Shown: in pieces, positions 3,312-64,000 of the stretch
Layout of the letters: each line of letters starts with the position of its first letter
How positions within the stretch are numbered: the stretch's first letter is position 1
Assembly: GCF_013761175.1 (NCBI RefSeq)
Contig: NZ_JACDUR010000003.1
Span: 1,027,896 to 1,091,895, forward strand
Direction: 5' to 3'
DNA length: 64,000 nucleotides
Source of the DNA: Nonomuraea soli
GTDB lineage: Bacteria > Actinomycetota > Actinomycetes > Streptosporangiales > Streptosporangiaceae
Position numbers and translations under genes: made by a program
The notes under the pieces: model-generated
The model's database searches: none
What the model was told of the DNA's origin: nothing
The model's input: only the letters and a program-made list of their open reading frames with translations

Positions 3312-4165
3312 GTCTGCTCGTCACCGCGTTCGACGGCATCGCCTTCGGATGCCTGCTCTTCGTCCTGGCCGTCGGGTTAACCATGATCTTCGGCCTCCTG
3401 GACGTGCTCAACCTGGCCCACGGCGCCCTCTACATGGCAGGCGGCTACCTGGCCTTCCTGGTCATCGGCGAGGTGCCCACCTCGCTGGCGGTCTTCATCG
3501 GCGTCGCCCTGCTGGCCGTGGTCGCGGGCCTGGTGCTCGGCGGCGGCCTGTCGGTGGCGATCAGGCCGCTGACCAGGCGCGGCCATTTGGACCAGGCGTT
3601 GCTGACCATGGGCCTGGCCATCCTGCTGTCGGAGTTCCTGCTGCAGGTGGCCGACCGCGGTTTCCACAGCCTGGCCGCGCCGCGCGGGCTCGACGGCAGT
3701 ATCGCGGGCAGCTACCCGGCCTACCGGGTGGCGGTCATCGTGGCCGGACTGGCGATCGCCGGGGCCACCTTCTGGATCTTCGAGCGGACCAGGGCGGGCG
3801 CGCTGGTCCGCGCGGCCGTGGACGACCCCGAGATGCTCGCTGCCTCGGGCGTCAACGTCAGGCGCATCCGCCTGTCGGTGGTGCTCGCGGGTTGCGCGCT
3901 GGCGACTCTCGCGGGGGTGCTGGGCGGGCCGCTGCTCAACCTGCGCGCGGGGCTCGACACCGAGGTGCTGGTCCTGGCGCTGATCGTCATCGTGGTCGGC
4001 GGGCTGGCCTCGATCCGCGGCGCGGCGCTGGGCGCGCTCCTGATCGGGCAGGTGCAGACGCTCGGCGTGGCGCTGGTGCCGGAACTGGCCGCCTACCTGC
4101 TGTTCGCGGTCATGGCCGCGGTGTTGTTGTGGCGCCCCGCCGGACTCTTCGGGAGGGCGACATGA
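3308..4165 (+). CDS. LivH-type ABC transporter permease
   Basis: A 285-residue integral membrane protein of the branched-chain amino acid permease family. The GTG at 3308 overlaps the upstream stop and is the only start that gives the normal N-terminus. Hydrophobic helices run through the protein, with the LAVGLTMIFGLLDVLNLAHGALYMAGGY segment characteristic of LivH (about residues 20-47) and the coupling region near DDPEMLAASGVNVRRIRL. It should form the membrane channel together with the next gene product. Spacing (4-bp overlaps on both sides) shows one operon. Confidence 0.93.
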   Translation: MSLLVTAFDGIAFGCLLFVLAVGLTMIFGLLDVLNLAHGALYMAGGYLAFLVIGEVPTSLAVFIGVALLAVVAGLVLGGGLSVAIRPLTRRGHLDQALLTMGLAILLSEFLLQVADRGFHSLAAPRGLDGSIAGSYPAYRVAVIVAGLAIAGATFWIFERTRAGALVRAAVDDPEMLAASGVNVRRIRLSVVLAGCALATLAGVLGGPLLNLRAGLDTEVLVLALIVIVVGGLASIRGAALGALLIGQVQTLGVALVPELAAYLLFAVMAAVLLWRPAGLFGRAT

Positions 4166-5109
4166 GGGAGAGCGTCATGAGGGGAGGCGACGCGCGCATG
4201 AGCCGCCTGACGAGGAGGCTCGCCTTCGCGGCCGCCCTCGTCCTGCTGGCTGCCATGCCGTACATGCTCGACGCCTATCGCCTCGACCTGCTGGCCGGTG
4301 GGCTCGCCTACGGGCTGATGGCCGCGAGCCTGGCCTTCCTGGTGGGGCACGGCGGGCTGCCCTCGCTCGGCCACGCGGCCTTCCTGGGCGTCGGAGCCTA
4401 CGCCGCAGGGCTGACCGCCAAGCACGTCACGCCCAACGTGGCGCTCCAACTGCTGGTCGCGATCGCGGCGGGCGTGCTGTTCGCCCTGCTCACCGGATGG
4501 TTCGCGGTGCGCACCAGAGGCTTCTTCTTCCTGATGTTCACCCTGGCCATCGGCGAGATCGCGGTGCAGGCGGCGACCCGCTCCACGCGCGTGACCGGCG
4601 GCGACAACGGCCTGGCCGACATCCCGCCGACCGGCCTGGACGTGGTGACGTTCTACTGGTGGGCGCTGGCGGTCGTCGCGGTCGGCTTCGGCGTGCTGGT
4701 CCTGCTGCGCGACGGCCCGCTGGGCCGCTCCATCGCGGGCGCGCGCGAGAACGAGGCGCGCATGGCCGCGCTCGGCTACCACGTGACCGGCGTACGGCTG
4801 GCGGCCGTGGTGATCGCCGGGGCGGTCTGCGCGGCAGGGGGAGCGCTGGTGGAGCAGAAGGACACCTTCGTCGCACCCACGCACCTGGAGATCGGCGTAT
4901 CGGTGCTCTTGCTGATCATGGTGCTGCTCGGCGGGCGTCAGACGCTCATCGGGCCGCTGATCGCGGGCGTCGGTCTGATCGTGCTGCGCTCGGTCACCTC
5001 GACCGCGCTCGGCGAGCTGTGGTTGCTGGTGGAGGGCGCGCTGTTCGTGATCTGCGTCTACCTGCTGCCCAACGGACTGCTGGGGAGGCGACGTGCTCAG
5101 GCTGCATGA
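4162..5109 (+). CDS. LivM-type ABC transporter permease
   Basis: A 315-residue polytopic membrane protein of the LivM family, with LPSLGHAAFLGVGAYAAGL near residue 75 and the coupling-helix region ARENEARMAALGYHV near residue 195. The ATG at 4162 overlaps the stop of the preceding permease. Two further in-frame ATGs (4177, 4198) would shorten the cytoplasmic N-terminus and cannot be excluded. Its 3' end overlaps the first ATPase gene by 17 bp, an unusually long overlap for this operon. Confidence 0.92.
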   Translation: MRESVMRGGDARMSRLTRRLAFAAALVLLAAMPYMLDAYRLDLLAGGLAYGLMAASLAFLVGHGGLPSLGHAAFLGVGAYAAGLTAKHVTPNVALQLLVAIAAGVLFALLTGWFAVRTRGFFFLMFTLAIGEIAVQAATRSTRVTGGDNGLADIPPTGLDVVTFYWWALAVVAVGFGVLVLLRDGPLGRSIAGARENEARMAALGYHVTGVRLAAVVIAGAVCAAGGALVEQKDTFVAPTHLEIGVSVLLLIMVLLGGRQTLIGPLIAGVGLIVLRSVTSTALGELWLLVEGALFVICVYLLPNGLLGRRRAQAA

Positions 5110-5830
5110 GCTGACCATGCGTTTCGGCGCGCTCAACGCCGTCGACGGGGTGAGCCTGTCGGTGGGCGAGGGGGAGCGGCGGGCGCTGATCGGGCCGAAC
5201 GGCGCGGGCAAGTCGACGCTGTTCGCCATGATCGCGGGGGCGCTGAGGCCGTCGGGCGGCACGATCGAGTTCGACGGCCAGGACGTGACCGGGCTGCCCG
5301 AACATCGGCGCGCGCGGCGCGGCATCGCCAGGACCTTCCAGCACAGCAGCCTGTTCGCGGGGCTGAGCTGCGCGGAGAACGTGGCGCTGGCCGTACGGGC
5401 GCGGCGGGGGCTCGGGATGAGGGCGTGGCTGGGTAGTGGGCGAAATATGGATATAAAACGGGAGGTGACCGGCTACTTGGACCTCATGGAGCTCAGCGAA
5501 GAAAGACCAGCCGGCGCCCTGTCCCACGGTGAGGCACGCAGGCTGGAGGTGGCCATGGCCCTGGCCCAGCAGCCCAGGCTGCTGCTGCTCGACGAGCCCG
5601 CGGCGGGCATGTCGTCGGCCGAGAGCGCCCGCTTCGCCGAGCTCATCCAGAACCTGGACACCACGCTGCTGATCGTGGAGCACGACCTCGACGTCGTGTT
5701 CGCGGTCGCCTCCCACGTGACCGTGCTGGCCTCCGGCAAGGTCATCGCCGACGGCTCGCCCGCCGAGATCAAGGCCAGTGCCGAGGTCGAGCGGGTCTAC
5801 CTGGGTACGGCCAAGGAGATCTGGTGCTGA
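5093..5830 (+). CDS. LivG-type ABC transporter ATP-binding protein
   Basis: A 245-residue ABC ATPase starting at GTG 5093. Walker A is GPNGAGKST, the signature is LSHGEARRLEVAMAL, Walker B is LLLLDEPAAGM, and the switch His is in LLIVEHDLDVV. The FQHSSLF motif after the Q-loop and the LivG-type layout place it with the branched-chain amino acid importer ATPases. About 30 bases around 5440-5465 are much richer in A+T than the surroundings and fall in the variable helical-domain insert. It should pair with the LivF-type ATPase that follows. Confidence 0.92.
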   Translation: MLRLHELTMRFGALNAVDGVSLSVGEGERRALIGPNGAGKSTLFAMIAGALRPSGGTIEFDGQDVTGLPEHRRARRGIARTFQHSSLFAGLSCAENVALAVRARRGLGMRAWLGSGRNMDIKREVTGYLDLMELSEERPAGALSHGEARRLEVAMALAQQPRLLLLDEPAAGMSSAESARFAELIQNLDTTLLIVEHDLDVVFAVASHVTVLASGKVIADGSPAEIKASAEVERVYLGTAKEIWC

Positions 5831-6510
5831 CCGTCGAAGCGCTCACCTCCGGTTACGGCCAGGGCCAGGTGCTGCACGAAGCCGCCATGGAGCTCCCGCC
5901 GGGCAAGGCGGTGGCCGTCCTCGGCCGCAACGGCGTCGGCAAGACGACCTTCGTGCACACCCTCATGGGCCTGGTCAAGCCGTGGAGCGGCTCGATCAGG
6001 CTCGGCGACGACGAACTGGCCGGGCTCGACACCCGGCAGATCGCCCGGCACGGCGTGCGGATCGTGCCGCAGGGGCGGCGCGTCTACCGCTCGCTGACCG
6101 TCGAGGAGACCCTCGCCATATCCTCCGGACCGGGGGAGTGGACAATCGAGCGGGTCTACGAGTTGTTCCCCTCGCTGGCCGCCCGTCGCGGCCACCGGGG
6201 CGACCAGCTGTCCGGCGGCGAGCAGGAGATGCTCGCCATCGGCAGGGCCCTGCTGGGCAACCCCCGGCTGCTGCTGCTCGACGAGCCGTCTGAAGGCCTG
6301 GCGCCGCTCGTCGTCGAGGAGCTGGGCCGGGCCCTTTCGAGCCTGGAAGGCATGTCGATCATTCTGGTCGAGCAGAACCTGCACCTGGCCGTGGCCGTCG
6401 CCGACGAGGTGCGGTGCATGGTGAAGGGCAGCTTCGTCTACCAGGCCACGACCGCCGAGTTCCGCAGGGACCCGGCTGCTGCGAAGGAGTATCTGGGTGT
6501 TGGATCGTGA
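5824..6510 (+). CDS. LivF-type ABC transporter ATP-binding protein
   Basis: A 228-residue ABC ATPase starting at GTG 5824 inside the end of the preceding gene. It has Walker A GRNGVGKTT, the LivF-typical VPQGRRVYRSLTVEETL segment, signature LSGGEQEMLAIGRALL, Walker B LLLLDEPSEGLAPL and a switch region ILVEQNLHLA. It completes a five-component importer (binding protein, two permeases, two ATPases). Its 3' end overlaps kynureninase by 14 bp, which ties the transporter to kynurenine catabolism. Confidence 0.92.
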   Translation: MLTVEALTSGYGQGQVLHEAAMELPPGKAVAVLGRNGVGKTTFVHTLMGLVKPWSGSIRLGDDELAGLDTRQIARHGVRIVPQGRRVYRSLTVEETLAISSGPGEWTIERVYELFPSLAARRGHRGDQLSGGEQEMLAIGRALLGNPRLLLLDEPSEGLAPLVVEELGRALSSLEGMSIILVEQNLHLAVAVADEVRCMVKGSFVYQATTAEFRRDPAAAKEYLGVGS

Positions 6511-8302: not shown

Positions 8303-8875
8303 ATGCTGCTCACCTTCACGGTGACCGGACTGATCATGATCATGATTCCAGGGCCGGACGCCGCGCTGATCATGCGCACCTCCATCAGCCACGGCCGCGC
8401 CGCGGGACTCCGCACGATGCTCGGCGGGCTGATCGGCCTGACCGTCCACGCCGCAGCTGCGACAGCGGGGCTCTCGGCCCTCCTGGCCGCCTCGCCGACC
8501 GCCTTCGCCATCCTGCGCTGGGCCGGCGTCGCCTACCTGCTGTGGCTCGGGGTCCAGGCGCTGCGGGCCCGCGGACGCGCCGCGGAGTCGAGCGCGCCCA
8601 CCGCGCGTCACATCCGCAGCGGGCTGCTGTCGAACCTGCTCAACCCGAAGGTCCTGCTCTTCTTCGTGACCTTCCTGCCGCAGTTCATGGCCACCGAGTC
8701 GCCCGTGTTGCTCTCGGCGATCTTCGCCGGGCTCTACGCGCTCTGGTTCACCCTCTACATCCTGGTCGTCGACCGGCTGGGCGCGCTGCTGCGCACGCCG
8801 CGCATGCGCCGCCGCATCGAGCGGGTGACCGGCGTGGTGCTCGTCGGCTTCGCCCTACGCCTGGCCGTCCAGTAG
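8303..8875 (+). CDS. LysE/RhtB-family exporter
   Basis: A 190-residue membrane protein. It has the family's N-terminal IMIPGPDAALIMRTSISHGRAAGL motif region, about six hydrophobic segments, and the central LSNLLNPKVLLFFVTFLPQF motif. Members export amino acids or homoserine lactone-like compounds. The start at 8303 is chosen because the family begins just before LTFTVTGLIMIMIPGPD; the longer frame would add an unsupported Arg/Pro-rich extension. Its last 21 bp overlap the convergent YjbR-type gene. The exported solute is unknown. Confidence 0.9.
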   Translation: MLLTFTVTGLIMIMIPGPDAALIMRTSISHGRAAGLRTMLGGLIGLTVHAAAATAGLSALLAASPTAFAILRWAGVAYLLWLGVQALRARGRAAESSAPTARHIRSGLLSNLLNPKVLLFFVTFLPQFMATESPVLLSAIFAGLYALWFTLYILVVDRLGALLRTPRMRRRIERVTGVVLVGFALRLAVQ

Positions 8876-47122: not shown

Positions 47123-48082
47123 TCAGCCGAGGGCGATGCCCCTGTAGTAGTGCCTCAGGATGGCGGCGTAGCTCCAGCCCGCCCTCGCCTTGTCGCGCGA
47201 GCCGTACTGCGACATCCAGTCGCCGTCGCTCCAGTTGCCGCAGGCGGTCGTGGTCGAGCAGTACTGCGCGCGGAAGATCTTTCCGTTCCGGGTCAGCCTG
47301 GTTCCCCAGATCGCGTCGACGGCCGCGCTGGTCACGGCCTTCGCGGACCCGGGCTTGTAGACCTGGCTCGACGTGTGGTCGTAGACGTCGAAGCACTGGC
47401 CGCCCGGCGTCTTCTTGTTGGAGTGCAGCGCCCAGTACCAGCCGAAGTTCTTGACCGCCACGGCGCCGGCCTTGAGCGACTCAGCGGGCCAGCTCGACAC
47501 CCACTCGTTGGGCAGGACATTCTTGACGTACGTCTTGAAGTCCACCCGCTCCACCCGGCCGAGAGACTTGCGGTAGACGAGGATCGTCGTCGGGAGCCTG
47601 GTGTCGGAGCCGTCGGTCTTGCAGCCGGTCGGTGTGCTTCCACCGCCGCCGCTCACGAACTGGTGTGAGGCGTTCTGGTTCTTCAGGGTGGGGCTGAGGT
47701 TGCCGCGGCTTCCTGGGCCGAAGTCTTGATACTGGCCGGCGTGGCCGGTGTTGAAGTAGACGCGGACGGTCTTGCTGCTGCGGTTCCAGACGGAGGCGGC
47801 TGAGTTCTTGATGCACTGGCCCTTGCCGGCGCCGGGGCCCTTGAAGTCGTAGCAGCTCGGCTGGGTTGTGGCGTAGTCGGCGACCGAGCTGGTGAAGTCG
47901 GAGACCGAGCCCTGGTTGTTGCTGTTGAAGTAGTAGCAGAACTCGCCGGAGTCGCAGACGCCGTCGCGACCGGCCGCCGCGGCGGGGGCGGCCGTCGCCA
48001 GGAGCGCGCCGCCGAACATCATCGCGGCGGCGACGCCGGCGCTCAGCCGTACAGATCGTGGAGACACGTTCGCCTTCCTCAT
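47123..48082 (-). CDS. Secreted I36-domain protein with C-terminal SpoIID/LytB-like domain
   Basis: A 319-residue exported protein. The signal peptide (residues ~1-37) ends in ATAAPAAAA. Next is a peptidase-inhibitor-I36/crystallin-like module (DGVCDSGEFCYYFNSNNQGSV...) with paired Cys, then a SpoIID-like domain (VDFKTYVKNVLPNEWVSSWPAESLKAGAVAVKNFGWYWAL; later MSQYGSRDKARAGWSYAAILRHYY). SpoIID-type enzymes cleave denuded glycan strands; the I36 part may bind wall or inhibit proteases. ATG starts at 48118, 48100 and 48082 are in frame because an 18-bp unit is duplicated; 48082 gives the best signal peptide. Confidence 0.85.
   Translation of the reverse strand: MRKANVSPRSVRLSAGVAAAMMFGGALLATAAPAAAAGRDGVCDSGEFCYYFNSNNQGSVSDFTSSVADYATTQPSCYDFKGPGAGKGQCIKNSAASVWNRSSKTVRVYFNTGHAGQYQDFGPGSRGNLSPTLKNQNASHQFVSGGGGSTPTGCKTDGSDTRLPTTILVYRKSLGRVERVDFKTYVKNVLPNEWVSSWPAESLKAGAVAVKNFGWYWALHSNKKTPGGQCFDVYDHTSSQVYKPGSAKAVTSAAVDAIWGTRLTRNGKIFRAQYCSTTTACGNWSDGDWMSQYGSRDKARAGWSYAAILRHYYRGIALG
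47657..47968. repeat. Near-identical 312-bp I36 module, copy A (copy B at 48598-48909)
   Basis: The I36-domain coding DNA of the SpoIID-type gene and of the neighbouring M23 gene differ at about six of 312 positions when read side by side, including silent sites. The flanking domains are unrelated. This indicates a very recent duplication or gene conversion. Confidence 0.85.
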
Positions 48083-48114
48083 CGGAGCCTCGGAGATCAT
48101 CGGAGCCTCGGAGG

Positions 48115-49005
48115 TCATCGGACGGTGTAGCCCTGGGAGTTCCAGAAGGAGGTGGGGTTCGGGTTCTGCAGGTGCGAGTCGCCGACGCTCTTCGCGGCAC
48201 GCAACTGGCGGCCGGGGCGCATCTCGACGTGGGTGTGCGCGGAGGCCCTGGTGGACACGCCGCGCCACGACTCGGTGGCGATGACCTGGCCCTTCGCGAT
48301 CTGCTGACCCACCCGCAGCGAGGAGAGCGGGGCGGTGTGCAGGTAGACGACCGTCTTGTTCACGGAGCGGAGGTAGATGGAGATCGTCGACAGGCCGGCT
48401 CGGCCGGTGGCACCGTACTGGACGTTGATGAGCTCGCCCGACACCAGCGACCGCACGTTGGAGCCGACTCCGTACGCGAAGTCGATGCCCTCGTGGCGGC
48501 CCGCGGTGCTGGTGTAGCCGTCGAAGCCGCAGGTGATACGGCCGGCCGCCGCGTAGAGCGAGAACGACAGGTTGCTGCGCGCCGAGGTCGAAGGGGAGAA
48601 CTGGTGTGAGGCGTTCTGGTTCTTCAGGGTGGCGTTGAGGTTGCCGCGGCTTCCTGGGCCGAAGTCCTGGTACTGGCCGGCGTGGCCGGTGTTGAAGTAG
48701 ACGCGGACGGTCTTGCTGCTGCGGTTCCAGACGGAGGCGGCTGAGTTCTTGATGCACTGGCCCTTGCCGGCGCCGGGGCCCTTGAAGTCGTAGCAGCTCG
48801 GCTGGGTCGTGGCGTAGTCGGCGACCGAGCTGGTGAAGTCGGAGACCGAGCCCTGGTTGTTGCTGTTGAAGTAGTAGCAGAACTCGCCGGTGTCGCAGAC
48901 GCCGTCGCGGCTCGCGGCCGAGACTGGCGAGGCCGCGCCGAGCACGGCGGCGCTCAGCGCTAAGGCGGCGGTCGCGGACATGAGGATGCTGGTACGCGCT
49001 CTCAT
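48115..49005 (-). CDS. Secreted I36-domain M23-family metallopeptidase
   Basis: A 296-residue exported protein with a signal peptide (MSATAALALSAAVLGAASPVSA) and an I36/crystallin-like module (~33-135) almost identical to that of the downstream gene. The C-terminal M23 (lysostaphin-type) domain has HEGIDFAYG and HTHVEM as the zinc site. M23 enzymes cut peptidoglycan cross-bridges or stems. Its stop overlaps the first possible ATG (48118) of the SpoIID-type gene, so the two are likely co-transcribed. Confidence 0.88.
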   Translation of the reverse strand: MRARTSILMSATAALALSAAVLGAASPVSAASRDGVCDTGEFCYYFNSNNQGSVSDFTSSVADYATTQPSCYDFKGPGAGKGQCIKNSAASVWNRSSKTVRVYFNTGHAGQYQDFGPGSRGNLNATLKNQNASHQFSPSTSARSNLSFSLYAAAGRITCGFDGYTSTAGRHEGIDFAYGVGSNVRSLVSGELINVQYGATGRAGLSTISIYLRSVNKTVVYLHTAPLSSLRVGQQIAKGQVIATESWRGVSTRASAHTHVEMRPGRQLRAAKSVGDSHLQNPNPTSFWNSQGYTVR

Positions 49006-55350: not shown

Positions 55351-55974
55351 ATGAGGAGTCGTACCATTCCGGCCGCGCTGCTGGCGCTCAGTGCCGTTCC
55401 GATCGTCGCGGGCGGGATCCGCATGACCGAACTGTCCGTGGGCGCGGCGATCACGCCGGACAACGCGCGCTTCTTCGCCTCGCCGCTTCCGGTGAGCCTG
55501 CACATCGCGGGCGCGACCGTCTATACCGTCGTCGGCGCTTTCCAGTTCGCGCCCGCTCTGCGGCGCAGCCGTGCCGGCTGGCATCGCGCCGCTGGGCGGG
55601 TGCTGGTGCCCGCGGGGCTGATCGCGGCGCTCGCCGGGATGTGGATGACGCTGTTCAGCTCGCTGCCCGAGGCCGACGGCACGCTGCTGGGCGTCTTTCG
55701 CGTGATCTTCGGTACGGCCATGGCCGCCTCGCTGGTCCTCGGCCTGCTCGCGATCCGGCGCCGCGACATCGCCGCCCACCGGGCCTGGATGATGCGCGCC
55801 TATGCGATCGGCCTGGGCGCGGGCACGCAGGCGTTCACGTTGCTGCCGTGGTTTGTGCTCGTCGGCACGCCTGGACAACTTCCCAAGGCGTTGTTGTCGG
55901 CTGCGGGCTGGCTGATCAATCTGGCGGTCGCCGAGTGGGTCATCCGCCGGCCCTACAGGCGGTTGGTCTCGTAG
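55351..55974 (+). CDS. DUF2306-like membrane protein
   Basis: A 207-residue membrane protein with about six helices and the family's H-x-A-G-A/H-RAAGRVLVP loop (WHRAAGRVLVPAGL) and later AAHRAWMMRAYA. DUF2306 is of unknown function; the His residues in the loops may bind a cofactor. The ATG at 55351 follows GAGGG. Its 3' end overlaps the convergent response-regulator gene by 22 bp. Confidence 0.82.
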   Translation: MRSRTIPAALLALSAVPIVAGGIRMTELSVGAAITPDNARFFASPLPVSLHIAGATVYTVVGAFQFAPALRRSRAGWHRAAGRVLVPAGLIAALAGMWMTLFSSLPEADGTLLGVFRVIFGTAMAASLVLGLLAIRRRDIAAHRAWMMRAYAIGLGAGTQAFTLLPWFVLVGTPGQLPKALLSAAGWLINLAVAEWVIRRPYRRLVS

Positions 55975-56603
55975 GCCCACATGGCGATCTCGACGCGGTT
56001 GCGGGCGCCGAGTTTGGCCATGAGGCTGGCGATATGTGATTTGACCGTGCTGAGCGAAATATGCAGGTCGTCGGCGATCTCGCCGTTGGTTCGTCCGCGC
56101 GCCACGGTCAGCAAGATCTGCTCCTCCCGCTCGGTCAGCGTCTCGATCGGCCGTACGGGCGGAGAGGCGGGCCCGGTGCGGGAGAAGGCGCCGAGCAGCC
56201 GCGCGGTGACGCTGGGCGCGATGAGCGCCTCGCCGCTGGCGGCGGCATGGACGGCCTGCGAGAGCAGGGCCGCGCCCGCGTTCTTGAGCAGGAAGCCCTT
56301 GGCCCCGGCCCGCAGTGCGGCATAGACGTACTCGTCGAGGTCGAAGGTGGTGATGACGACCACGGCCAGCGGGTCCGCGACGTCGGGCCCGGCCAGGCAG
56401 CGGGTGGCCTGGATGCCGTCGAGTCCGGGCATGCGGATGTCGAACAGGCAGACGTCGGGGCGCAGGCGCCGGGCCAGTTCGACCGCGCGCCTGCCGTCGC
56501 CCGCCTGGCCGATGACCTCGATGCCGGGCTGGGCGTCGAGGATCATGGTGAGGCCGGTCAGGACGATCTCCTGGTCGTCGGCGACGAGCACCCGCACGCT
56601 CAC
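55953..56603 (-). CDS. NarL/LuxR-family response regulator
   Basis: A 216-residue protein with receiver (LVADDQEIV; phosphoacceptor Asp in VCLFDIRMPGLDG; Lys in FLLKNAG) and a LuxR-type HTH (LTEREEQILLTVARGRTNGEIADDLHISLSTVKSHIASLMAKL). The GTG at 56603 overlaps the kinase stop. It lies downstream of the right-hand lanthipeptide genes on the same strand and might regulate them. Confidence 0.92.
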   Translation of the reverse strand: MSVRVLVADDQEIVLTGLTMILDAQPGIEVIGQAGDGRRAVELARRLRPDVCLFDIRMPGLDGIQATRCLAGPDVADPLAVVVITTFDLDEYVYAALRAGAKGFLLKNAGAALLSQAVHAAASGEALIAPSVTARLLGAFSRTGPASPPVRPIETLTEREEQILLTVARGRTNGEIADDLHISLSTVKSHIASLMAKLGARNRVEIAMWAYETNRL

Positions 56604-57730
56604 GACCGCCTCCCCGCCCGGGGGAGGACGGCGGTGACCGTCCAGCCGGTCCCGGGGCCGGGGCCGGCCTGGCAGGTGCCGCCGAGCAGCTCGGCGCGTT
56701 CGATCATGCCGATGATGCCGTAGCCGGGCCCGGGGGCGGACGGGGGTGCGCCGTCGTCGGTCACGCTCAGCCGTACGCAGTCCTCCTCCGCTCTGACGCT
56801 CACCTCGATGAGCTCGACGTGGCGTCCGTGCCGCCTGGCGTTGGTGACCGACTCCTGCGCGAGCCGGTAGAGCGCCGCCCCGACCGACGGCGGCAGCTCG
56901 CCGAGGTCGCCGGAGAGGTTCACCCTCACAGCCGGTACGGCGGAGCCCTGAGTGGCCAGCTCCGCGAGATCGGCGACCCCGCGCCCGGGCGCCAGCTCGG
57001 GCGGCTGGTTCTGGCGCAGCACGCGGACCATGCTGTTCATCTCGGCCAGCGCGCGAGCCGCCTCCTCCTCGATCAGCTTCAGCGCGTCGGTCGCGGCGTC
57101 GGGCCGCGACGCGGAGGTGGCCAGCCCGGCCTGCGCGCGGATCGCCATGGCCGAGACGTGATGGGCCACGGTGTCGTGCAGGTCGCGGGCGAGCTGGGCG
57201 CGTTCGAGCAGCTTGACCTGGTCCAGCTCGCGCGATCGAGCTCTGGCCCGGTATCGCAGGGCGATGCCGAGCGTGGTGGCCGCCGACATCACGGCGAGCG
57301 AGCCGACCACGTCGGAAGGCGCTGTACGGCCGAAGGCGGTCGAGAGCCCGAGCGCCGTGATCATGGCGGCCAGTCCGATCGCGATCTCGCGTCCCGATCC
57401 CCAGCGAGCCAGCGCGTAAACGAGGATCAGCAGGTAGACCAGGGAGTATGCCTGCGAGGGCGCGCCGCCGGTCAGCAGCGGCGCCAGCGCCGTGGCGGCG
57501 AAGACGATCAGGAGCATCCGCAGCGGATGCGTCCGCCGCCACAGCAGCGTGGGCACCAGGGCGACGCTGAGCGTCACGGCGACGACCCGGTCGGGCAGGT
57601 CGGGGCGGAGGAAGCCTTCGAGCAGCGCGACCGGCACGAGCACGCCTACGAGCACCCAGTCACGCGGCACTCGCGCGGGCGGATCGGGGGGACGCGGTTC
57701 GTTCCACAGGGAACGAAGAACGGCGTGCAC
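56600..57730 (-). CDS. Sensor histidine kinase (HisKA_3 type)
   Basis: A 376-residue membrane kinase. Hydrophobic helices occupy about residues 25-160, followed by the phosphoacceptor segment LARDLHDTVAHHVSAMAIRA and the ATPase part with AQESVTNARRHG and GIIGMIERAELLGG. GTG start at 57730. It is 110 bp downstream of the ABC exporter gene; whether it belongs to the same transcript is unclear. It partners the regulator that follows. Confidence 0.92.
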   Translation of the reverse strand: MHAVLRSLWNEPRPPDPPARVPRDWVLVGVLVPVALLEGFLRPDLPDRVVAVTLSVALVPTLLWRRTHPLRMLLIVFAATALAPLLTGGAPSQAYSLVYLLILVYALARWGSGREIAIGLAAMITALGLSTAFGRTAPSDVVGSLAVMSAATTLGIALRYRARARSRELDQVKLLERAQLARDLHDTVAHHVSAMAIRAQAGLATSASRPDAATDALKLIEEEAARALAEMNSMVRVLRQNQPPELAPGRGVADLAELATQGSAVPAVRVNLSGDLGELPPSVGAALYRLAQESVTNARRHGRHVELIEVSVRAEEDCVRLSVTDDGAPPSAPGPGYGIIGMIERAELLGGTCQAGPGPGTGWTVTAVLPRAGRRS

Positions 57731-57840: not shown

Positions 57841-59655
57841 TCACTGGTCCTGGTACCCCTTGGCGTGCAACGCGTACAACGTGGCGTAAAGATCCCCCGC
57901 TGCCATCAGCTCCTCATGGCTCCCGACCTCCCGGATCCGGCAGTCGTCAAGCACCACGATGAGGTCGGCACTCCGGACGGTGGCGAATCGATGGGAGACG
58001 AAGACCGTGATCGTGCCTTCGTCCGACTGGGCGGCCGTCTCCTGAAAGCTCCTGAAGATCTCGTACTCGGCGGCCGGGTCCAGGTTGGCCGCCGGCTCGT
58101 CCAGGACGCGGAGCAGCGGTGCGGCGCGCATCCCGGCCCTGGCCATCGCCAGCTTCTGCCACTGACCGCCGGACAGGTCGGTGCCGCCGGGGAAGGTGGC
58201 CCCGAGCTGGGTGCGGAGGCCGTGGGGGAGCAGCCCTGGTAGCGCCGAGGCGCCGGCCCGGTCGAGGGCGCGCTCGGCCGCGGGGAAGTCGTCGATCCGG
58301 GGCAGGTCGCCGAGCCCGACCGATTCGTGCAGGAGGAACTCGGGACGCAGGTAGTCCTGGAAACACGCGGTCGTACGGCTGCGCCAAGCCTGCAGGTCGT
58401 AGTCGGTGATGTCCCGCCCGGCATAGGTGATGCGCCCCGAGGTGGGCTGGTACATCTGGCACAGCAGCTTGACCAGCGTGGTCTTGCCGGCGCCGTTCTC
58501 GCCCACGATGGCGACGGTGCTTCCGGCTGGCAGCCGCAGGGACAGGTTGTCCAGGTTGGGCCGCGCGGCGCCGGGATAACGGAAGGTGAGGCGGTCGAGC
58601 ACGAGGTCGTGGCCGGGCGGCGGGGGGACGGCCGAGCCGTTCCCTGCGGTGGCGACGGCCTTGGCGTGGTCGTCGAGCCAGAGGTAGTAGCCCACCGTGC
58701 GGACGGAGCGTTGCAGGAACGACAGCATGGTGATCATGCCTGAGACGTTCGAGGTGAGCTGGGAGCCCAGCGACAGGGTGAGGACGACGTCGCCGGGGGT
58801 GGCCTTGCCCTGGAGGGCGGCGGAGACGACCAGGTAGAGGGCGCCGGCGAAACCGAGGCCAAAGAGGGTCCAGCCGCCGCTGGTCCACAGGGTGCTTCGC
58901 CACTCCGCGCGGCGCTTGGGGCCGTCGACCTGTTCCTGGAGGTCGCGGTGGCGTTCGGCGAGCTCGCCCTGAAGGCCGTAGACGCGGATCTCCTTGGCCG
59001 ACAGCGGCGAGGTGACGAGGGCGAACAGGGACTTGCGCAGCCGGTTGGGCTCGGTGGTGGTCTCCTCGGCCTGGGCCGTGGCCCGCTCGCCCCGCCGTAC
59101 CGCCAGGACGGTAGGCAGGGCGAGCAGCACCAGGAAGAGCAGTTCGGGGCGGACACTCATCAGCAGGGAGACGGTCAGGCCGAAGGTGATGAGAGTGCGC
59201 GCGTTCTCCACGATGATGCCGAACGCGCCGCCGAGCCCCTGACGATGGTTGCGCAGCAGGTCGAGCCGGTCCTGGTAGGCGGGGTTCTCGTGGTGGTCGA
59301 GCTGGGGCAGGGATCCGCAGAGAGTCATGATGCGCTGGTCGAGGACGAGCCCGACGCGCAGCTGCAACTGGATGCGCGCCTCGGCCACGAGTGTGCTGGC
59401 CAGGAAGGCGACGACCAGCGCGCCGGCCATCAGAGCGGCGGCACTCATCATGCCGGCCAGGTCGGCGGCGGTCGCGGAGTCCACCATCAGGCGCAGCCCG
59501 ATCGCGGTCACCGCGGCGGTGGCCCCGCTCACCGGGGTGAGCACGAGGACGAGCAGAGCCTTGCGCGGGTCGGCCCGGAAGGCGGCGGCGATGAGCAGGG
59601 CGGTGCTCCGCCCCAGCTTGCGCGGGGTCATGCGGTCATCGACCAGCTCAGACAC
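57841..59655 (-). CDS. ABC exporter half-transporter, right-hand lanthipeptide cluster
   Basis: A 604-residue protein with six membrane helices (~20-320) and an ATPase domain: Walker A GENGAGKTT, signature LSGGQWQKLAMARA, Walker B VLDEPAANLD, switch FVSHRFATV. No C39 peptidase domain precedes the helices, so it does not itself cleave a double-Gly leader. The GTG at 59655 overlaps the partner's stop by 8 bp. It likely works with the next exporter to move modified peptides out. Confidence 0.88.
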   Translation of the reverse strand: MSELVDDRMTPRKLGRSTALLIAAAFRADPRKALLVLVLTPVSGATAAVTAIGLRLMVDSATAADLAGMMSAAALMAGALVVAFLASTLVAEARIQLQLRVGLVLDQRIMTLCGSLPQLDHHENPAYQDRLDLLRNHRQGLGGAFGIIVENARTLITFGLTVSLLMSVRPELLFLVLLALPTVLAVRRGERATAQAEETTTEPNRLRKSLFALVTSPLSAKEIRVYGLQGELAERHRDLQEQVDGPKRRAEWRSTLWTSGGWTLFGLGFAGALYLVVSAALQGKATPGDVVLTLSLGSQLTSNVSGMITMLSFLQRSVRTVGYYLWLDDHAKAVATAGNGSAVPPPPGHDLVLDRLTFRYPGAARPNLDNLSLRLPAGSTVAIVGENGAGKTTLVKLLCQMYQPTSGRITYAGRDITDYDLQAWRSRTTACFQDYLRPEFLLHESVGLGDLPRIDDFPAAERALDRAGASALPGLLPHGLRTQLGATFPGGTDLSGGQWQKLAMARAGMRAAPLLRVLDEPAANLDPAAEYEIFRSFQETAAQSDEGTITVFVSHRFATVRSADLIVVLDDCRIREVGSHEELMAAGDLYATLYALHAKGYQDQ

Positions 59656-61441
59656 GGTGCGTCTCCTGGAACGGTGCGCTCTGGAGGGTGAACATGTGGG
59701 CGTACTGGCCGCCGAGCGCCATGAGCTCGTCGTGCGAGCCGTACTCGATCACCCGGCCGCCGTCGAGCACGCAGATCCGGTCGGCCAGCCGTACGGTCGC
59801 GAAGCGGTGGGAGACGAGGATCGTGGTCAGGCCACGAGTCAGGTCGAGGAAGTGCTCATAGATCTCGGCCTCGGCCCGGACGTCGAGGTTGGCGGTGGGC
59901 TCGTCGAGGATGAGCACCTTGGCGCCGTGCTCGACCGCCAGGAGCGCGCGGGCGAGCGCGACCCGCTGCCACTGCCCGCCGGACAGGTCGGTGCCGCCCT
60001 CGAACCGGCGGCTCAGCGGCGTGTCCCAGCCGGCGGCCAGCCGGGGGAGCACCTGGTCGAGCCCGGAGACGGCGGCCACCCGCTCCAGCGCGGCGTCGGA
60101 ACGATCGGCGTCGAGCCGGCCGAAGCCGACGTTGTCGCGCAGGGGCAGCTCGTAGCGCAGGAACTCCTGGAAGACGACCGCGAGCTGCCTGCGCCACGCC
60201 CTGACGTCGAGCGCGTGCAGGTCCTCGCCGTCGACGGTGATCCGGCCGCCGTCCGGCTCGTACAGGCGGGACAGCAGCTTGACGATCGTGCTCTTGCCCG
60301 CGCCGTTGACCCCGACGATGGCCAGCGACGTGCCGGCGGGGATGTCGAGGTCGAGGCCCTGGAGCACCTGACGGTCCGGGTAGCCGAAGCTGATGTTCTC
60401 CAGCCGGATGCCCTGCGCGGGAAGACCTTCGGCAGGCGGTACGGCGGGCCGCCGGTGCGCGGGTTCGATCCCCAGCCGCCCGACGGCGACCGCGTGGGGA
60501 ACAGCGGTGCTGGCATGCGTCAGCATCCACTGCACGTCACCCAGGAAGCCGAGCAGCGAGATCCCGGTGATCGCCTGGAGCGCGACGACGATCGATTCGA
60601 CGCCGAGCCGGCCGTCGGTGACCGCGAAGGCGAGGTACAGGAAGGCGGCGACGTGCGCGACCCCGACCAGCGCGAGGCTGACCGTTTTCACGAGCGTGCT
60701 GCCCATGCTGCCCGCGGTCCCGGTGCCCTCGTGCCAGGCGCGGGTGAAACGGTCGAGCAGCCAGTCCTGCCAGCCGAAGACCCGGATCTCCTTCGCGGCC
60801 GCGTCACCGATGGCCAGGTCCCTGGCGTAGGCGGCGTGGCGTAGGACGGGCATCGTCCCGGAGCTGGCGGCGACCGTCTTCTTCAGGTCACGCAGCCGCC
60901 ATCGGGACAGCAGGATCCACACGGCGGCCAGCGGGAGCGGCAACCACCATTCGACCGTGGCCAGGGTGATCGCCGCGGCGAGCCCGCCCAGCCGGCTGGA
61001 GACGAGCCGCGCCAGCGAGGTCACCGCGTTGCCCGGCGGGTAGCCGGTGTTCAGGCCCTGGGCGAGCTGGATGCGGTCGGAGACGACCGGATCGGTGAGA
61101 TGCTCGATGCCGATCGGCCGGAGCGTGCCTTCCAGCGTGGTCTGCGTGAGCATCGCGGTGAAGCGGCGGGCCAGCGAGTTGCCGAGCGCGGTCTCGACGG
61201 GGTCGAGGGCCAGCCGGAGGACGAACAGGGTCGTCAGGGCGGCCAGATACCAGCCCACCGCACCCGATCGTGCCGCCAGCTCGGCCACGACGGCACCGCT
61301 CGCGAGCATGAAGCCCGCGCTCAGCAGCGCGTCCAGCACCACCAGGAACGACAGCGCCGCGGTCAGCCCCGGAGACACCTTGGGCAACGCGCGGACCACG
61401 GCCAGCACGCTGGTGTGGTTCTTCGTCGTCTCGGAGCTCAT
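59648..61441 (-). CDS. ABC exporter half-transporter, right-hand lanthipeptide cluster
   Basis: A 597-residue protein with membrane helices over the first ~310 residues, then Walker A GVNGAGKST, signature LSGGQWQRVALARALL, Walker B VLILDEPTANLD and switch LVSHRFATV. All ATPase motifs are intact, unlike the class III cluster's pair. The ATG at 61441 overlaps the lanC stop (ATGA), so expression is coupled to the cyclase. It lacks an N-terminal peptidase domain. Confidence 0.9.
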   Translation of the reverse strand: MSSETTKNHTSVLAVVRALPKVSPGLTAALSFLVVLDALLSAGFMLASGAVVAELAARSGAVGWYLAALTTLFVLRLALDPVETALGNSLARRFTAMLTQTTLEGTLRPIGIEHLTDPVVSDRIQLAQGLNTGYPPGNAVTSLARLVSSRLGGLAAAITLATVEWWLPLPLAAVWILLSRWRLRDLKKTVAASSGTMPVLRHAAYARDLAIGDAAAKEIRVFGWQDWLLDRFTRAWHEGTGTAGSMGSTLVKTVSLALVGVAHVAAFLYLAFAVTDGRLGVESIVVALQAITGISLLGFLGDVQWMLTHASTAVPHAVAVGRLGIEPAHRRPAVPPAEGLPAQGIRLENISFGYPDRQVLQGLDLDIPAGTSLAIVGVNGAGKSTIVKLLSRLYEPDGGRITVDGEDLHALDVRAWRRQLAVVFQEFLRYELPLRDNVGFGRLDADRSDAALERVAAVSGLDQVLPRLAAGWDTPLSRRFEGGTDLSGGQWQRVALARALLAVEHGAKVLILDEPTANLDVRAEAEIYEHFLDLTRGLTTILVSHRFATVRLADRICVLDGGRVIEYGSHDELMALGGQYAHMFTLQSAPFQETHRV

Positions 61442-62550
61442 CGCAGCCCCAGCGTCGCCAGCCATCGCCGGTCGCCCCCCTCCACGGTGAGCAGGGCGGC
61501 CAGCACGCCGCCTGCGCCGTTCATCAGTGACCAGTCGGTGGCCGCCAGCTCGGCGACCTCCTCGTGGCGGTCGAGCAGGTAGCCGGTCAGGTGTGTGGCG
61601 AGTGCTTGCGCCCCGCCGAGCGGAGTGTGCCTGGCGAAGGCGTCGAAGATCAGCAGGGTGCCGGCGGCCCCGTGGCAGAGAGCCAGATTCCGCAGGTCCC
61701 GATCGTCGTAGGCGGTGACGAAGGAGGCCGCCGCTTCGAGCGCGAAGGCGGCCAGTTCGGGATCGCCGAGGATGCGGGCCGTCTCCCACATCACCCAGGC
61801 GTTGCTCGGACAGCCGTAGCACCAGGCCTGCAGCGGGCGGCTCGGGAGCTCGACGCCGATGGCGTGCGGCCAGGCATAGACGCCGCGGCCGTCGGGACGG
61901 CACTCGGCGACGAGGCGTCCGGCGAGGCGGGCCAGGGTGGTGGCCAGGTCGTCGCTCAGCCCGTCGGCTTCGGCCGCGGCACACAGGGCGATCATGATCC
62001 CGGGCAGGCCGTGGGCCAGGCCGAGGTTGACGTGGCCGATGTTCCACCGGCGAGGGTGATCGTTCTGGTGCTCGCCCACCCGCAGCCGTACGAGGTCCGG
62101 CGTGGCGCAGAGCCGGAGCAGATGGCCGGTCAAGGGCGCGCGGGCCGTGGCGGGCACCCCCGGATCGGCGGCCAGCGCGACCAGGATGCCCGACGGACCC
62201 ACGATCAGGTCGTAGTCCGGCCAGCCGACCTCGCTGTCCCGCCAGGTCGTGGCGGCCAGCTGCGCGATCAGCGCCTGGCGTTGCGCGCCGACGGGTCCGG
62301 TGAGCTTGGGCCAGGTGGACGCGGCGATCCGCAGGGCGAGCAGGCGTTCGGCGGAGCCGCCGAAGAGGCCCAGCCCTCGGGGTGCCTGCTTCAGCCCGCG
62401 CAACCAGGAGGTCAGGGCGCGAGTGGTGTCCGGCCCGTCCAGGGCTCCGGCGACGACCGCCATGGCCGCGTCGGGGGCCGCCTGCGGGAGCTCGCCCAGC
62501 AGCCGTCCGAGGCGCGCCAGGCTGGGTGATCGTTCCTTCACGTGGGGCAT
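61438..62550 (-). CDS. lanC: Lanthionine synthetase C-family cyclase (LanC)
   Basis: A 370-residue alpha-toroid protein. The zinc ligands are Cys244 in WCYGC and Cys292-His293 in LCHGAAG, spaced as in NisC. GLAHGLPG (His180) supplies the other conserved catalytic His region. It should add cysteine thiols to dehydrated Ser/Thr to form (methyl)lanthionines. Stand-alone LanC next to a LanB-like gene indicates a class I pathway. It lies directly after the array of precursor-like peptides and before two exporters. Confidence 0.92.
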   Translation of the reverse strand: MPHVKERSPSLARLGRLLGELPQAAPDAAMAVVAGALDGPDTTRALTSWLRGLKQAPRGLGLFGGSAERLLALRIAASTWPKLTGPVGAQRQALIAQLAATTWRDSEVGWPDYDLIVGPSGILVALAADPGVPATARAPLTGHLLRLCATPDLVRLRVGEHQNDHPRRWNIGHVNLGLAHGLPGIMIALCAAAEADGLSDDLATTLARLAGRLVAECRPDGRGVYAWPHAIGVELPSRPLQAWCYGCPSNAWVMWETARILGDPELAAFALEAAASFVTAYDDRDLRNLALCHGAAGTLLIFDAFARHTPLGGAQALATHLTGYLLDRHEEVAELAATDWSLMNGAGGVLAALLTVEGGDRRWLATLGLR

Positions 62551-62568
62551 GGAGGGCCTTTCGCCAGA

Positions 62569-62601
62569 GGATGGCGGCGCACAGGGCGTGCGCCGCCATC
62601 C
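62569..62601 (-). terminator. Hairpin between the precursor array and lanC
   Basis: A perfect 14-bp stem (GGATGGCGGCGCAC / GTGCGCCGCCATCC) with a 5-base loop lies between the last small peptide gene and lanC. No T-run. It probably limits read-through so that precursors are made in excess over enzymes. Confidence 0.7.
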
Positions 62602-62660
62602 CTTTCCCGGTGAATCAGGGACGGAGAGGGGGGTGGCGTCCCTTGGGTGAACTCGGCTGC

Positions 62661-62807
62661 TCAGATCAGCGAGGCGCGGTCCGGAGGCAACTGCTTCCGC
62701 ACCACCACCAGCTCGGGTTCCACCGGCGTCGCGGCGTGGATCTCCAGGTCGTCGACGAGCTCGTCGACACGTTCCTGTCCCGGCTCGGGCACGGTGTTCG
62801 CGGACAC
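62661..62807 (-). CDS. Precursor-like peptide 1, cysteine-free
   Basis: A 48-residue ORF starting at GTG 62807. It shares the leader of its neighbours (VPEPGQERVDELVDDLEIHA) but its C-terminal part (TPVEPELVVVRK, then QLPPDRASLI) contains no Cys and only one Ser. It cannot form lanthionine rings by itself. It may be a degenerate precursor, a substrate for dehydration only, or a leader-like helper peptide. No strong ribosome site is seen before the GTG. Confidence 0.65.
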   Translation of the reverse strand: MSANTVPEPGQERVDELVDDLEIHAATPVEPELVVVRKQLPPDRASLI

Positions 62808-62823
62808 GTGAGCCCTCGCCGGA

Positions 62824-62958
62824 TCAGCAGTTGCAGGTGTTGGTGACCTGGCAGTCCTCGGTGACCGTGCCGCCTTCGCGGACGGCGTGGACCTCGAGGT
62901 CGTCGATGAGCTCCTCGACCTGGTCCTGGGCGGGCTCGGGAGTGGTGTTCTCAGACAT
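62824..62958 (-). CDS. lanA: Lanthipeptide-type precursor peptide 2
   Basis: A 44-residue ORF, ATG at 62958 with AAAGGAA upstream. The leader contains VEELIDDLEVHAVRE and the core is GGTVTEDCQVTNTCNC, with three Cys and four Thr. It is nearly a copy of peptide 3. The Thr-rich, Cys-paired core and the adjacent LanB/LanC genes mark it as a class I lanthipeptide-type precursor; ring pattern unknown. Confidence 0.85.
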   Translation of the reverse strand: MSENTTPEPAQDQVEELIDDLEVHAVREGGTVTEDCQVTNTCNC

Positions 62959-62977
62959 AACGGGTTCCTTTCGGTGT

Positions 62978-63112
62978 TCAGCAGTTGCAGGTGCTGGTGA
63001 GGTTGCAGTCCTCGGTGACCGTGCCGCCCTCGCGGACGGCGTGGACCTCGAGGTCGTCGATGAGCTCCTCGACCTTGTCCTGGCCGGGCTCGGGAGTCGT
63101 GTTCTCGGACAT
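62978..63112 (-). CDS. lanA: Lanthipeptide-type precursor peptide 3
   Basis: A 44-residue ORF, ATG at 63112 preceded by AAAGGAAA. The leader is the same as in peptide 2 (VEELIDDLEVHAVRE), and the core is GGTVTEDCNLTSTCNC, differing from peptide 2 at three core positions. The 154-bp unit including the ribosome site is tandemly duplicated with peptide 2, which suggests recent amplification. Confidence 0.85.
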   Translation of the reverse strand: MSENTTPEPGQDKVEELIDDLEVHAVREGGTVTEDCNLTSTCNC

Positions 63113-63158
63113 GAAAGGTTTCCTTTCGGTTGCGGGGTGTCGAGGGTGGCTTGGGTGG

Positions 63159-63287
63159 CTAGCCGCAGTCCCAGGTGAGGGCGGTGCAGTCCTCGGTGAA
63201 GGCGGACGCGACGGGCAGGGCGGCGTGGGTCTCGAGGTCGTCGATGAGCTCCTCGACCCCGGTGCCGGGCTCGGGATTGTCTGACAT
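63159..63287 (-). CDS. lanA: Lanthipeptide-type precursor peptide 4
   Basis: A 42-residue ORF, ATG at 63287 with GGCGGAA upstream. It keeps the VEELIDDLETHA leader motif but the core is distinct: ASAFTEDCTALTWDCG, with two Cys, three Thr and one Ser. T-x2-C (TEDC) recurs at the same place as in peptides 2 and 3. The TAG stop at 63159 ends the core one residue after the last Cys. Confidence 0.85.
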   Translation of the reverse strand: MSDNPEPGTGVEELIDDLETHAALPVASAFTEDCTALTWDCG

Positions 63288-63300
63288 GGTTCCGCCCTTC

Positions 63301-63438
63301 TCAGCCCGGCTCGCAGCCCAGGATGGTGACGCACCAGTCGACGGACAGTGATCCGCCCTCGCGGACCGCGTGGACTTCGAGGTCGTCGATCAGTTCGTCG
63401 ACGTGGTCCTCGGGCTCGGGTGCGGGGGTGTCTGACAT
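63301..63438 (-). CDS. lanA: Lanthipeptide-type precursor peptide 5
   Basis: A 45-residue ORF, ATG at 63438 with AAAGGA upstream. The leader has VDELIDDLEVHAVRE, and the core is GGSLSVDWCVTILGCEPG with two Cys, two Ser and one Thr. It is more hydrophobic than the other cores. S-x3-C and T-x3-C pairings are possible. Confidence 0.85.
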   Translation of the reverse strand: MSDTPAPEPEDHVDELIDDLEVHAVREGGSLSVDWCVTILGCEPG

Positions 63439-63455
63439 GACGCGGGTCCTTTCGT

Positions 63456-63566
63456 CTAGCCGAAGGGGCAGATCTGGGTGCAGTGGATGGAGGCTTCCTC
63501 GACGGCCGGGGAAGAGTGCAGCTCCAGGTCGTCGATGAGGTCGTCGACCTCGTTGGGCTCGGGCAT
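63456..63566 (-). CDS. lanA: Lanthipeptide-type precursor peptide 6, in frame with the LanB-like gene
   Basis: A 36-residue unit beginning at ATG 63566, with AGGAGG seven bases upstream. The leader is short (MPEPNEVDDLIDDLELHS) and the core is SPAVEEASIHCTQICPFG with two Cys. The reading frame is open upstream into the LanB-like gene, so the peptide could be made by internal initiation, as a C-terminal extension of the enzyme, or both. Confidence 0.7.
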   Translation of the reverse strand: MPEPNEVDDLIDDLELHSSPAVEEASIHCTQICPFG

Positions 63567-64000
63567 CAAAGGCCTCCTAGGCGATTGCGCTGACACGGCT
63601 CGGGCGGCCAGGGCCTGGGGGGAGAGGTCGTACGGCAGGCGGATCATGAGCTCGGCGGCGACCGGGTCGGTGGCGGCGCGGACGGGGAGCTCGTCGGGGG
63701 CGGGGATCATCTCGGTGATGATCAGGCGCTGAGGGTCGTCGGACTTGGCCAGGGCCTTGAGCATCTGGTCGAGGACGCGGGGGGCGCGGACGCTCTCCAG
63801 GTCGCACCCGACCGGCTGCGTGCCGTACCGGTGATAGGAGAGGAAGACCCAGCGGGGCAGGCCGAGTTCGGCGCGCAGCCGGTCGAGGGCGCGCAGTTCG
63901 GACAGGTCGCCACCGCCGAGGAAGGAGAGCCGGGCGGGGTCGAGGGACCACTGCGCGGGGGAGACGACGAGGGTACCCGCCACGGTGATCCGGGGGACGA
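63456..64000 (-). CDS. lanB: LanB-like lantibiotic dehydratase, C-terminal part (gene continues beyond the window)
   Basis: About 145 residues before the peptide-6 start resemble the C-terminal end of the LanB glutamylation domain: RITVAGTLVVSPAQWSLDPARL, GLPRWVFLSYHRYG, LESVRAPRVLDQML and LIITEMIPAPDELPV. LanB proteins dehydrate Ser/Thr using glutamyl-tRNA. The frame has no stop before peptide 6 and ends at 63456. In the neighbouring frame a TAG at 63577-63579 would end the protein right at the AGGAGG site, the usual arrangement. A one-base change in the six-G run at 63617-63622 would switch between the two, so a true fusion, programmed frameshift or sequencing error are all possible. Confidence 0.65.
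   Translation of the reverse strand, partial: VPRITVAGTLVVSPAQWSLDPARLSFLGGGDLSELRALDRLRAELGLPRWVFLSYHRYGTQPVGCDLESVRAPRVLDQMLKALAKSDDPQRLIITEMIPAPDELPVRAATDPVAAELMIRLPYDLSPQALAARAVSAQSPRRPLMPEPNEVDDLIDDLELHSSPAVEEASIHCTQICPFG

Follow-up and report, generated by a model that had tools for sequence, protein, structure and literature searches.

According to the study of the spt cluster of Streptomyces lavenduligriseus Tu901, the cluster of SapT, a search with the SptA sequence brought up homologous clusters in Streptomyces alone, and lanthipeptides of the SapT type have so far been reported from that genus only (PMC9011353). As described there, the spt cluster combines a split LanB, a LanC and rings of the S/TxxC pattern with a single precursor, and its lyase has Lys in place of a Tyr and Leu in place of an Arg. 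Dmxorosin, from the dmx cluster of Streptomyces thermolilacinus SPC6, is a second reported product of a split LanB acting with a LanC: it contains one lanthionine and three methyllanthionines, it is grouped with SapT by its authors, and a single precursor gene is named (PMC11855644). In the coi cluster of Streptomyces coelicolor, one enzyme set with a syn-type glutamyl lyase serves three substrate peptides, but there the LanB is full-length and the lyase is fused to a methyltransferase (PMC9486935, PMC9011353). We compare these systems with a locus at one end of a stretch of 64,000 nucleotides, hereafter the window (G000:C3:1027896-1091895), from a Nonomuraea genome of 10.1 Mb. The initial annotation of this DNA proposed a LanB/LanC class I lanthipeptide cluster in which one enzyme set is offered several leader-sharing candidate substrates, and we arrive at the same description. 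Very probably, the locus is a SapT-type operon for class I lanthipeptides and belongs to a Nonomuraea branch where the single precursor became six: it is a divergent branch of the SapT family with an expanded precursor array, rather than a new class. Prochlorosins also present many cores behind one leader to one enzyme set; their enzyme ProcM, however, is a class II LanM, and their precursors mostly do not lie in one tandem array.

Six precursors between LanB and LanC

The edge of the window cuts the LanB gene, and the contig runs on past it (region L009). The LanB-like piece seen in the window is the C-terminal part of a complete open reading frame (ORF) that continues on the contig (L009:6456-8909). 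All genes of the operon are on the minus strand, and the order of transcription is the lyase (L009:8906-9709), LanB, whose start overlaps the end of the lyase (L009:8906-8909), the precursors p1 to p6, LanC and two ABC exporters. In window coordinates, the features are:

63567..64000, minus: C-terminal part of the LanB glutamylation protein (781 amino acids without p1), extending beyond the window to L009:8909
63456..63566, minus: precursor p1, 36 amino acids, own ATG, two S/TxxC motifs
63301..63438, minus: precursor p2, 45 amino acids, two S/TxxxC motifs
63159..63287, minus: precursor p3, 42 amino acids, two TxxC motifs
62978..63112, minus: precursor p4, 44 amino acids, three TxxC motifs, TVTEDC present
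62824..62958, minus: precursor p5, 44 amino acids, near-duplicate of p4, three TxxC motifs, TVTEDC present
62661..62807, minus: p6, 48 amino acids, GTG start, leader kept, no Cys
62566..62604, minus: hairpin between p6 and LanC, 17 pairs, shuffle maximum 12
61438..62550, minus: LanC cyclase, 370 amino acids, PF05147 (E 2.3e-25)
59648..61441, minus: ABC exporter 1, 597 amino acids, PF00005, start overlapping the LanC stop
57841..59655, minus: ABC exporter 2, 604 amino acids, PF00005, start overlapping exporter 1

The six short ORFs that had been announced within 0.9 kb are all present: they share a leader, span 906 bases (62661-63566, minus strand) and are flanked by LanB and LanC. Over the six ORFs, the G+C content by codon position is 0.70/0.41/0.93, as expected for coding sequence in a genome rich in G+C, and differences between leaders are more often synonymous (0.25) than non-synonymous (0.09; 11 leader codons, 15 pairs). 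Together with conservation in other species, the third-position G+C and the excess of synonymous differences indicate that the six ORFs are coding.

The leader has the form V[DE][DE]L[IV]DDLE-x-H followed by A, with S instead of A in p1. None of the six precursors matches a family in NCBIfam or Pfam, curated precursor models included, which agrees with the earlier remark that the leader is unlike the listed FxLD types. It need not be without precedent, however: it resembles the SapT-type leader LDxLIxDL[ED], a motif taken here from the cluster of genome G841 and its relatives rather than from the spt paper. The likeness is weak by score and visible by eye, with the leaders of G004 as a bridge. 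When a profile of 16 precursors from outside Nonomuraea is compared with 1250 frames, four of the six window precursors occupy ranks 1 to 4.

Five of the six peptides contain two or three cysteines, as first noted, and p6 has none. The position of these cysteines was examined in the 10 Nonomuraea precursors that have Cys, p6 being left out. Ser or Thr stands three residues before 26 of the 29 core cysteines, where shuffled cores give a mean of 5.9 (standard deviation 2.0) and none of 2000 shuffles is as high, a count that is not a probability since the peptides are related. For p1 to p5 alone, the score is 10 of 12 cysteines against a shuffle mean of 2.2. Among offsets 1 to 8, the next best is -7, with 8 cysteines against a mean of 4.5, a value reached in 135 of the 2000 shuffles. 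The exception among the window peptides is p2, with Ser or Thr four residues before both cysteines, a spacing also found in distant SapT-type cores. Both the direction, with Ser/Thr before Cys, and the spacing fit the needs of small (methyl)lanthionine rings, and we read the S/TxxC pattern as the signature of predicted four-residue (methyl)lanthionine rings.

The cores themselves are polar. The grand average of hydropathy (GRAVY), measured from four residues before the first core Cys, ranges from -0.28 to 0.71 for p1 to p5 and from -0.83 to 0.45 in the four Nonomuraea relatives, and is 0.38 in G544; in 15 other clusters with a precursor, all from the genus of G458 (presumably Streptomyces), it ranges from 1.13 to 2.21. 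SapT-type cores are thus hydrophobic in these 15 clusters, as is the dmx core if judged by its close relative in G1034, whereas p1 to p5 do not have the hydrophobic core of a morphogen or surfactant by this measure. A SapT-like surfactant role is therefore unlikely here.

Do all these precursors work? The array could be a decaying by-product of tandem duplication in which few of the six, or a single one, still function, and we grant this a limited but appreciable chance. The peptide p6, without Cys, is a candidate degenerate or non-lanthionine paralogue, the ring spacing of p2 differs, p1 is fused to LanB, and a single precursor is enough in the relatives. Against decay, p1 to p5 all keep the leader, the S/TxxC or S/TxxxC motifs and a high third-position G+C, and leader differences are predominantly synonymous.

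A split LanB and the signature of its lyase

The initial annotation left it to the upstream gene to decide whether a LanB was involved. This gene is a complete ORF whose product matches Pfam PF04738 (E 8.9e-18, above the curated cut-off), as do all five Nonomuraea family members. The elimination domain is in a separate protein, identified by TIGR03891 (E 3.2e-30) and PF14028 (E 8.8e-19), both above cut-off. Judged by these domains, the LanB is split, with glutamylation and elimination on two proteins. In LanC, AWCYG and CHG align with NisC, giving the full zinc site that had been claimed, and both motifs are kept in all five Nonomuraea LanC proteins. Among the nine proteins of the window and its neighbourhood scanned with NCBIfam and Pfam, none is a methyltransferase.

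A LanB without an elimination domain in its own chain is also what one finds in PEARL-type peptide aminoacyl-tRNA ligases, for which the peptides would be scaffolds extended at the C-terminus. The conserved S/TxxC pattern argues otherwise, and in five of five Nonomuraea genomes the operon holds both an independent protein for the elimination domain and a LanC bearing the zinc motifs, which rules this reading out, for any practical purpose.

Aligned with MibB, the lyase has FFMRK where MibB has FFIRY, and YLFGG where MibB has ERYGG: Lys (residue 49) replaces Tyr, and Leu replaces the Arg of RYGG. The same Lys and Leu marks are described for SptBb and for syn-lyases (PMC9011353, PMC9486935), the criterion for the second position being a hydrophobic residue in place of Arg826 of NisB (PMC9486935). 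Nine of nine aligned lyases (five Nonomuraea, G544, G458, G476 and G596) have in common this Lys and the motifs GLR[IV]RF, LFGG and FHWNR. The two residues are 50 apart by eye in the G458 lyase, as are K92 and L142 in SptBb; the precursor core of G458 is close to SapT. Syn-lyases lack the catalytic His of anti-lyases. From the two signature residues, the lyase appears to be syn-eliminating and of the SapT type, which leads to the prediction of E-dehydrobutyrine and of D-allo-L-methyllanthionine.

The mechanism that we propose would run as follows. LanB would bind the shared leader and glutamylate Ser and Thr of each core from glutamyl-tRNA; the separate lyase (L009:8906-9709) would then remove the glutamate by syn-elimination, turning Thr into E-dehydrobutyrine. 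LanC would add each Cys to the dehydro residue three positions before it, or four in p2, so that each peptide gains two or three small rings. Export would fall to the ABC pair, and the leader would be cut off by a putative protease. The substrates would be p1 to p5, since p6, without Cys, could not form such rings by itself; free p1 would arise by translation from a strong ribosome site in front of it, and p1 may in addition be produced as the C-terminal end of LanB. The sequences show the genes and their order, the leader, the S/TxxC pattern, the kinship of LanB and the signature residues. For all five cores we infer modification, stereochemistry, export and processing, as well as the function of the products, from sequence. 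On these grounds, the host probably makes a small family of ring-closed peptides.

The two ABC exporters, first described as intact, have open frames, and each holds an ABC_tran domain. Pfam lists neither a C39 peptidase nor a membrane half in them, and the whole-length exporter models of NCBIfam match both proteins below their cut-offs. Exporter 1 is 67-70% identical to its counterparts in three relatives and 47% in the fourth; for exporter 2 the values are 66-68% and 48%. Directly downstream of the exporters lie a histidine kinase and a response regulator (window 55953-57730, minus strand, by eye), possible regulators.

Relatives in Nonomuraea and beyond

In 54 Nonomuraea genomes, a LanB profile finds full-length relatives in five, and some match at E 0.001 in 23. 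The LanB orthologues of the four genomes other than the host are 42-54% identical, and the order SpaB_C-LanB-LanA-LanC-ABC-ABC is kept in all five. A profile of 11 precursors, applied to the same 54 genomes, gives E < 1e-8 only in the five that bear the operon; the search for the leader beside LanB in other genomes thus finds it conserved. In the host genome this profile matches six places, all in the array, and in seven other genomes it gives one weak match each (E 0.009-0.08), in frames of about 890-980 amino acids.

Beyond the genus, some match at E 0.001 is found in 73 of 298 genomes of the family, mostly at positions ~640-770 of 788; these genomes, a draw without the other four Nonomuraea, contain no full-length LanB relative beyond that of the host, with a partial match in G241 and a fragment in G183. 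The fragment (L077, G183:C111, ~8347-8798) has an internal TGA and no other cluster-gene match in 18 kb, and is likely a remnant. Among 394 genomes of the class, at E 1e-15, four have LanB relatives besides the host (G544, G458, G476 and G596); G650 matches in pieces on two contigs and G353 and G575 partly, these three standing outside the cluster analysis. The LanB profile also matches 16 of 392 genomes from the genus of G458 (E < 1e-40).

We examined 23 clusters: the window, four from Nonomuraea, that of G544, which belongs to another family, and 17 from the genus of G458. The distant ones came from the profile search; a scan of genome contigs with two peptide patterns found three Nonomuraea records only. 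In 14 of the 18 distant clusters, the LanB profile matches over its full length or nearly so (E 1.5e-116 to 1.7e-173), and in the other four the match is partial or broken into pieces. In 13 clusters of the G458 genus (of 17), the reading was confined to LanB and flanks of about 1.5 kb and takes no account of LanC; in four distant clusters fetched with long flanks, the order SpaB_C-LanB-LanA-LanC is kept. Precursors were recognised by a leader motif, a triplet resembling a ribosome site, and two Cys (or DDLE), a pattern that odd precursors may escape. It yields a precursor beside LanB in 21 of the 23 clusters: one in 19 of them, two in G004 and six in the window; G951 and G739 have none that this search recognises. 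In a LanB tree of 22 rows with a midpoint root (G739, being partial, was left out), the five Nonomuraea form one clade with support 100/100, in which the window is nearest to G010, G040 and G051.

Two of the distant clusters tie this family to described products. The precursor core of G841 is YTQGCSGLCTIVICATVVICG, which we take to be identical to SapT, and the window LanB is about 34% identical to the LanB of G841. Aligned with the dmxA PCR primers given in the dmxorosin study (PMC11855644), the precursor gene of G1034 shows 1 and 3 mismatches, an exact search for the primer sites having found none. The family therefore holds one cluster with the SapT core and one close to dmx. Among the papers listed by literature searches, judged by title and abstract opening, none is on a SapT-type multi-precursor cluster of Nonomuraea.

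Several observations weigh against reading the locus as a lanthipeptide operon of the SapT type. In the search with the profile of 16 precursors, p3 ranks first and is the only significant peptide (E 0.0055, below 0.01); the next has E 0.53, p5 comes tenth (E 9.6) and p4 is unlisted. The LanB has no NCBIfam match and no PDB chain by sequence, and its Pfam match covers residues 471-693 only. Predicted structures of the N. jabiensis proteins have a mean predicted local distance difference test score (pLDDT) of 40 for LanB and 50 for the lyase, too low for a fold comparison. Finally, equating the Arg of MibB with Arg826 of NisB, and hence the use of NisB numbering, is itself an inference.

Several precursors with one leader and different cores could also suggest a two-peptide lantibiotic, with alpha and beta components, as the initial annotation proposed by way of example. 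The TVTEDC of p4 and p5 departs from the lipid II motif of mersacidin, given as TxTxEC (PMC7268733), by a single residue, with Asp where the motif has Glu, and would suit an antibacterial alpha peptide. We treat it as no more than a lead, because the relatives do not keep the motif: they keep the Thr at Cys-3, not the Thr at Cys-5 that the motif requires. Nothing else was found for such a product. No alpha/beta pairing was seen, p4 and p5 are near-copies of one another, and p6 is devoid of Cys. Of the relatives' clusters in which a precursor was recognised, 19 of 20 encode just one, and we regard the two-peptide product as very improbable.

The combinatorial product set, the other half of that proposal, is plausible. 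Its boldest form would be a natural library, in which a single split LanB with its LanC converts five or more different polar cores into syn-eliminated lanthipeptides with two or three consecutive four- or five-residue D-allo-L-methyllanthionine rings, the LanB also tethering p1 as a tail and free p1 coming from an internal start; in all its parts together, we hold this to be rather unlikely. With its polar cores and its six-member array, the Nonomuraea branch suggests that these enzymes are not restricted to hydrophobic morphogens and may tolerate diverse cores. The cluster is in this respect a natural test of the substrate range of a syn-eliminating split LanB, and a possible tool for making small D-allo-L-methyllanthionine rings.

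Junction, hairpin and neighbouring genes

In the window, LanB and p1 form a single ORF of 817 codons, in the same frame and with no stop between them; p1 can also start at an ATG of its own, which AGGAGG precedes at a distance of 6 bases. Each of the four Nonomuraea relatives has a stop 5 to 53 bases ahead of the precursor. Unlike SapT, the window thus has a LanB that runs into its precursor, and it is alone in this among the 21 clusters with a recognised precursor (0 of 20 relatives). The end of LanB and the start of the precursor overlap out of frame in four relatives (G596, G741, G909 and G919); an apparent fusion in G476 was discarded when its frames were read, LanB ending in another frame. 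Among the papers listed by a literature search, judged by title and abstract opening, none names such a LanB-precursor chain. A sequencing or assembly error is possible: another frame has TGATG at the start of p1.

The best stem between the last precursor and LanC was compared, in 21 clusters, with those of 60 single-base shuffles. It exceeds every shuffle in 12 clusters, including all five Nonomuraea (17-18 pairs), equals the longest shuffle in three (G458, G704 and G741), and falls below it in six (G544, G743, G905, G841, G1034 and G1016), that of G544 not even exceeding the mean. The hairpin of the window, with 17 pairs and no T-run, does not look like a standard terminator and is likely an attenuator or RNA stabiliser.

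Upstream of the lyase are genes for an ATP-grasp (L009:9755-10729), a cyclase-ATPase, a 61-amino-acid peptide, a GAF protein and an S8 protease. The ATP-grasp gene lies between those of the cyclase-ATPase and the lyase, in the same direction and with gaps of about 40-45 bases, and its product shows kinship with ATP-grasps that modify peptides, by its matches to TIGR04187 (E 1.7e-21, short of the curated cut-off) and to the PDB chain AMdnB (E 2.3e-11). Given also the Thr and Glu/Asp of several cores, one could imagine a lanthipeptide-graspetide hybrid, in which this enzyme cross-links the same precursors by ester or amide bonds. There is however a likelier candidate substrate at hand: the 61-amino-acid peptide (L009:13638-13823, or 70638-70823 in window numbering, beyond the window, minus strand), which has an aroma-sacti domain (NF045560, E 4e-21). 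In the four other Nonomuraea, the parts of the operon region that were read contain no ATP-grasp match. Conversely, G156 and G227 have the set of ATP-grasp, cyclase-ATPase, S8 and GAF genes with a peptide of about 60 amino acids beside the cyclase gene, and G135 has the set without a peptide recognised by the search; in all three, the 16-17 kb read around the module hold no LanB match. The hybrid is accordingly improbable, and the ATP-grasp most likely serves the 61-amino-acid peptide, in a second module for a ribosomally synthesised and post-translationally modified peptide. In G004, the lanthipeptide operon comes without a match to the ATP-grasp module in the bases read, so the lanthipeptide unit can stand alone.

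In N. jabiensis, the same lanthipeptide operon is preceded by S8 (74%) and GAF (69%) genes, an aroma-type peptide, another cyclase gene and two genes that look like radical SAM enzymes by eye (CxxxCxxC); this radical-SAM-like version of the module, at L024 ~3100-6033, has a peptide ending in YASGGWCW. Relatives of the ATP-grasp occur in other Nonomuraea (L130-L134), including a second copy in the host (L134), beside a divergent ABC gene, and most of these loci have apparent YcaO and TfuA genes by eye. ATP-grasps linked to YcaO/TfuA and to adenylate cyclases, possibly outside the graspetide class, are described in PMC8939145. Elsewhere in the window, at 47123-49005 on the minus strand, two adjacent genes for secreted proteins share by eye a near-identical stretch of about 100 amino acids and differ in their C-terminal parts.

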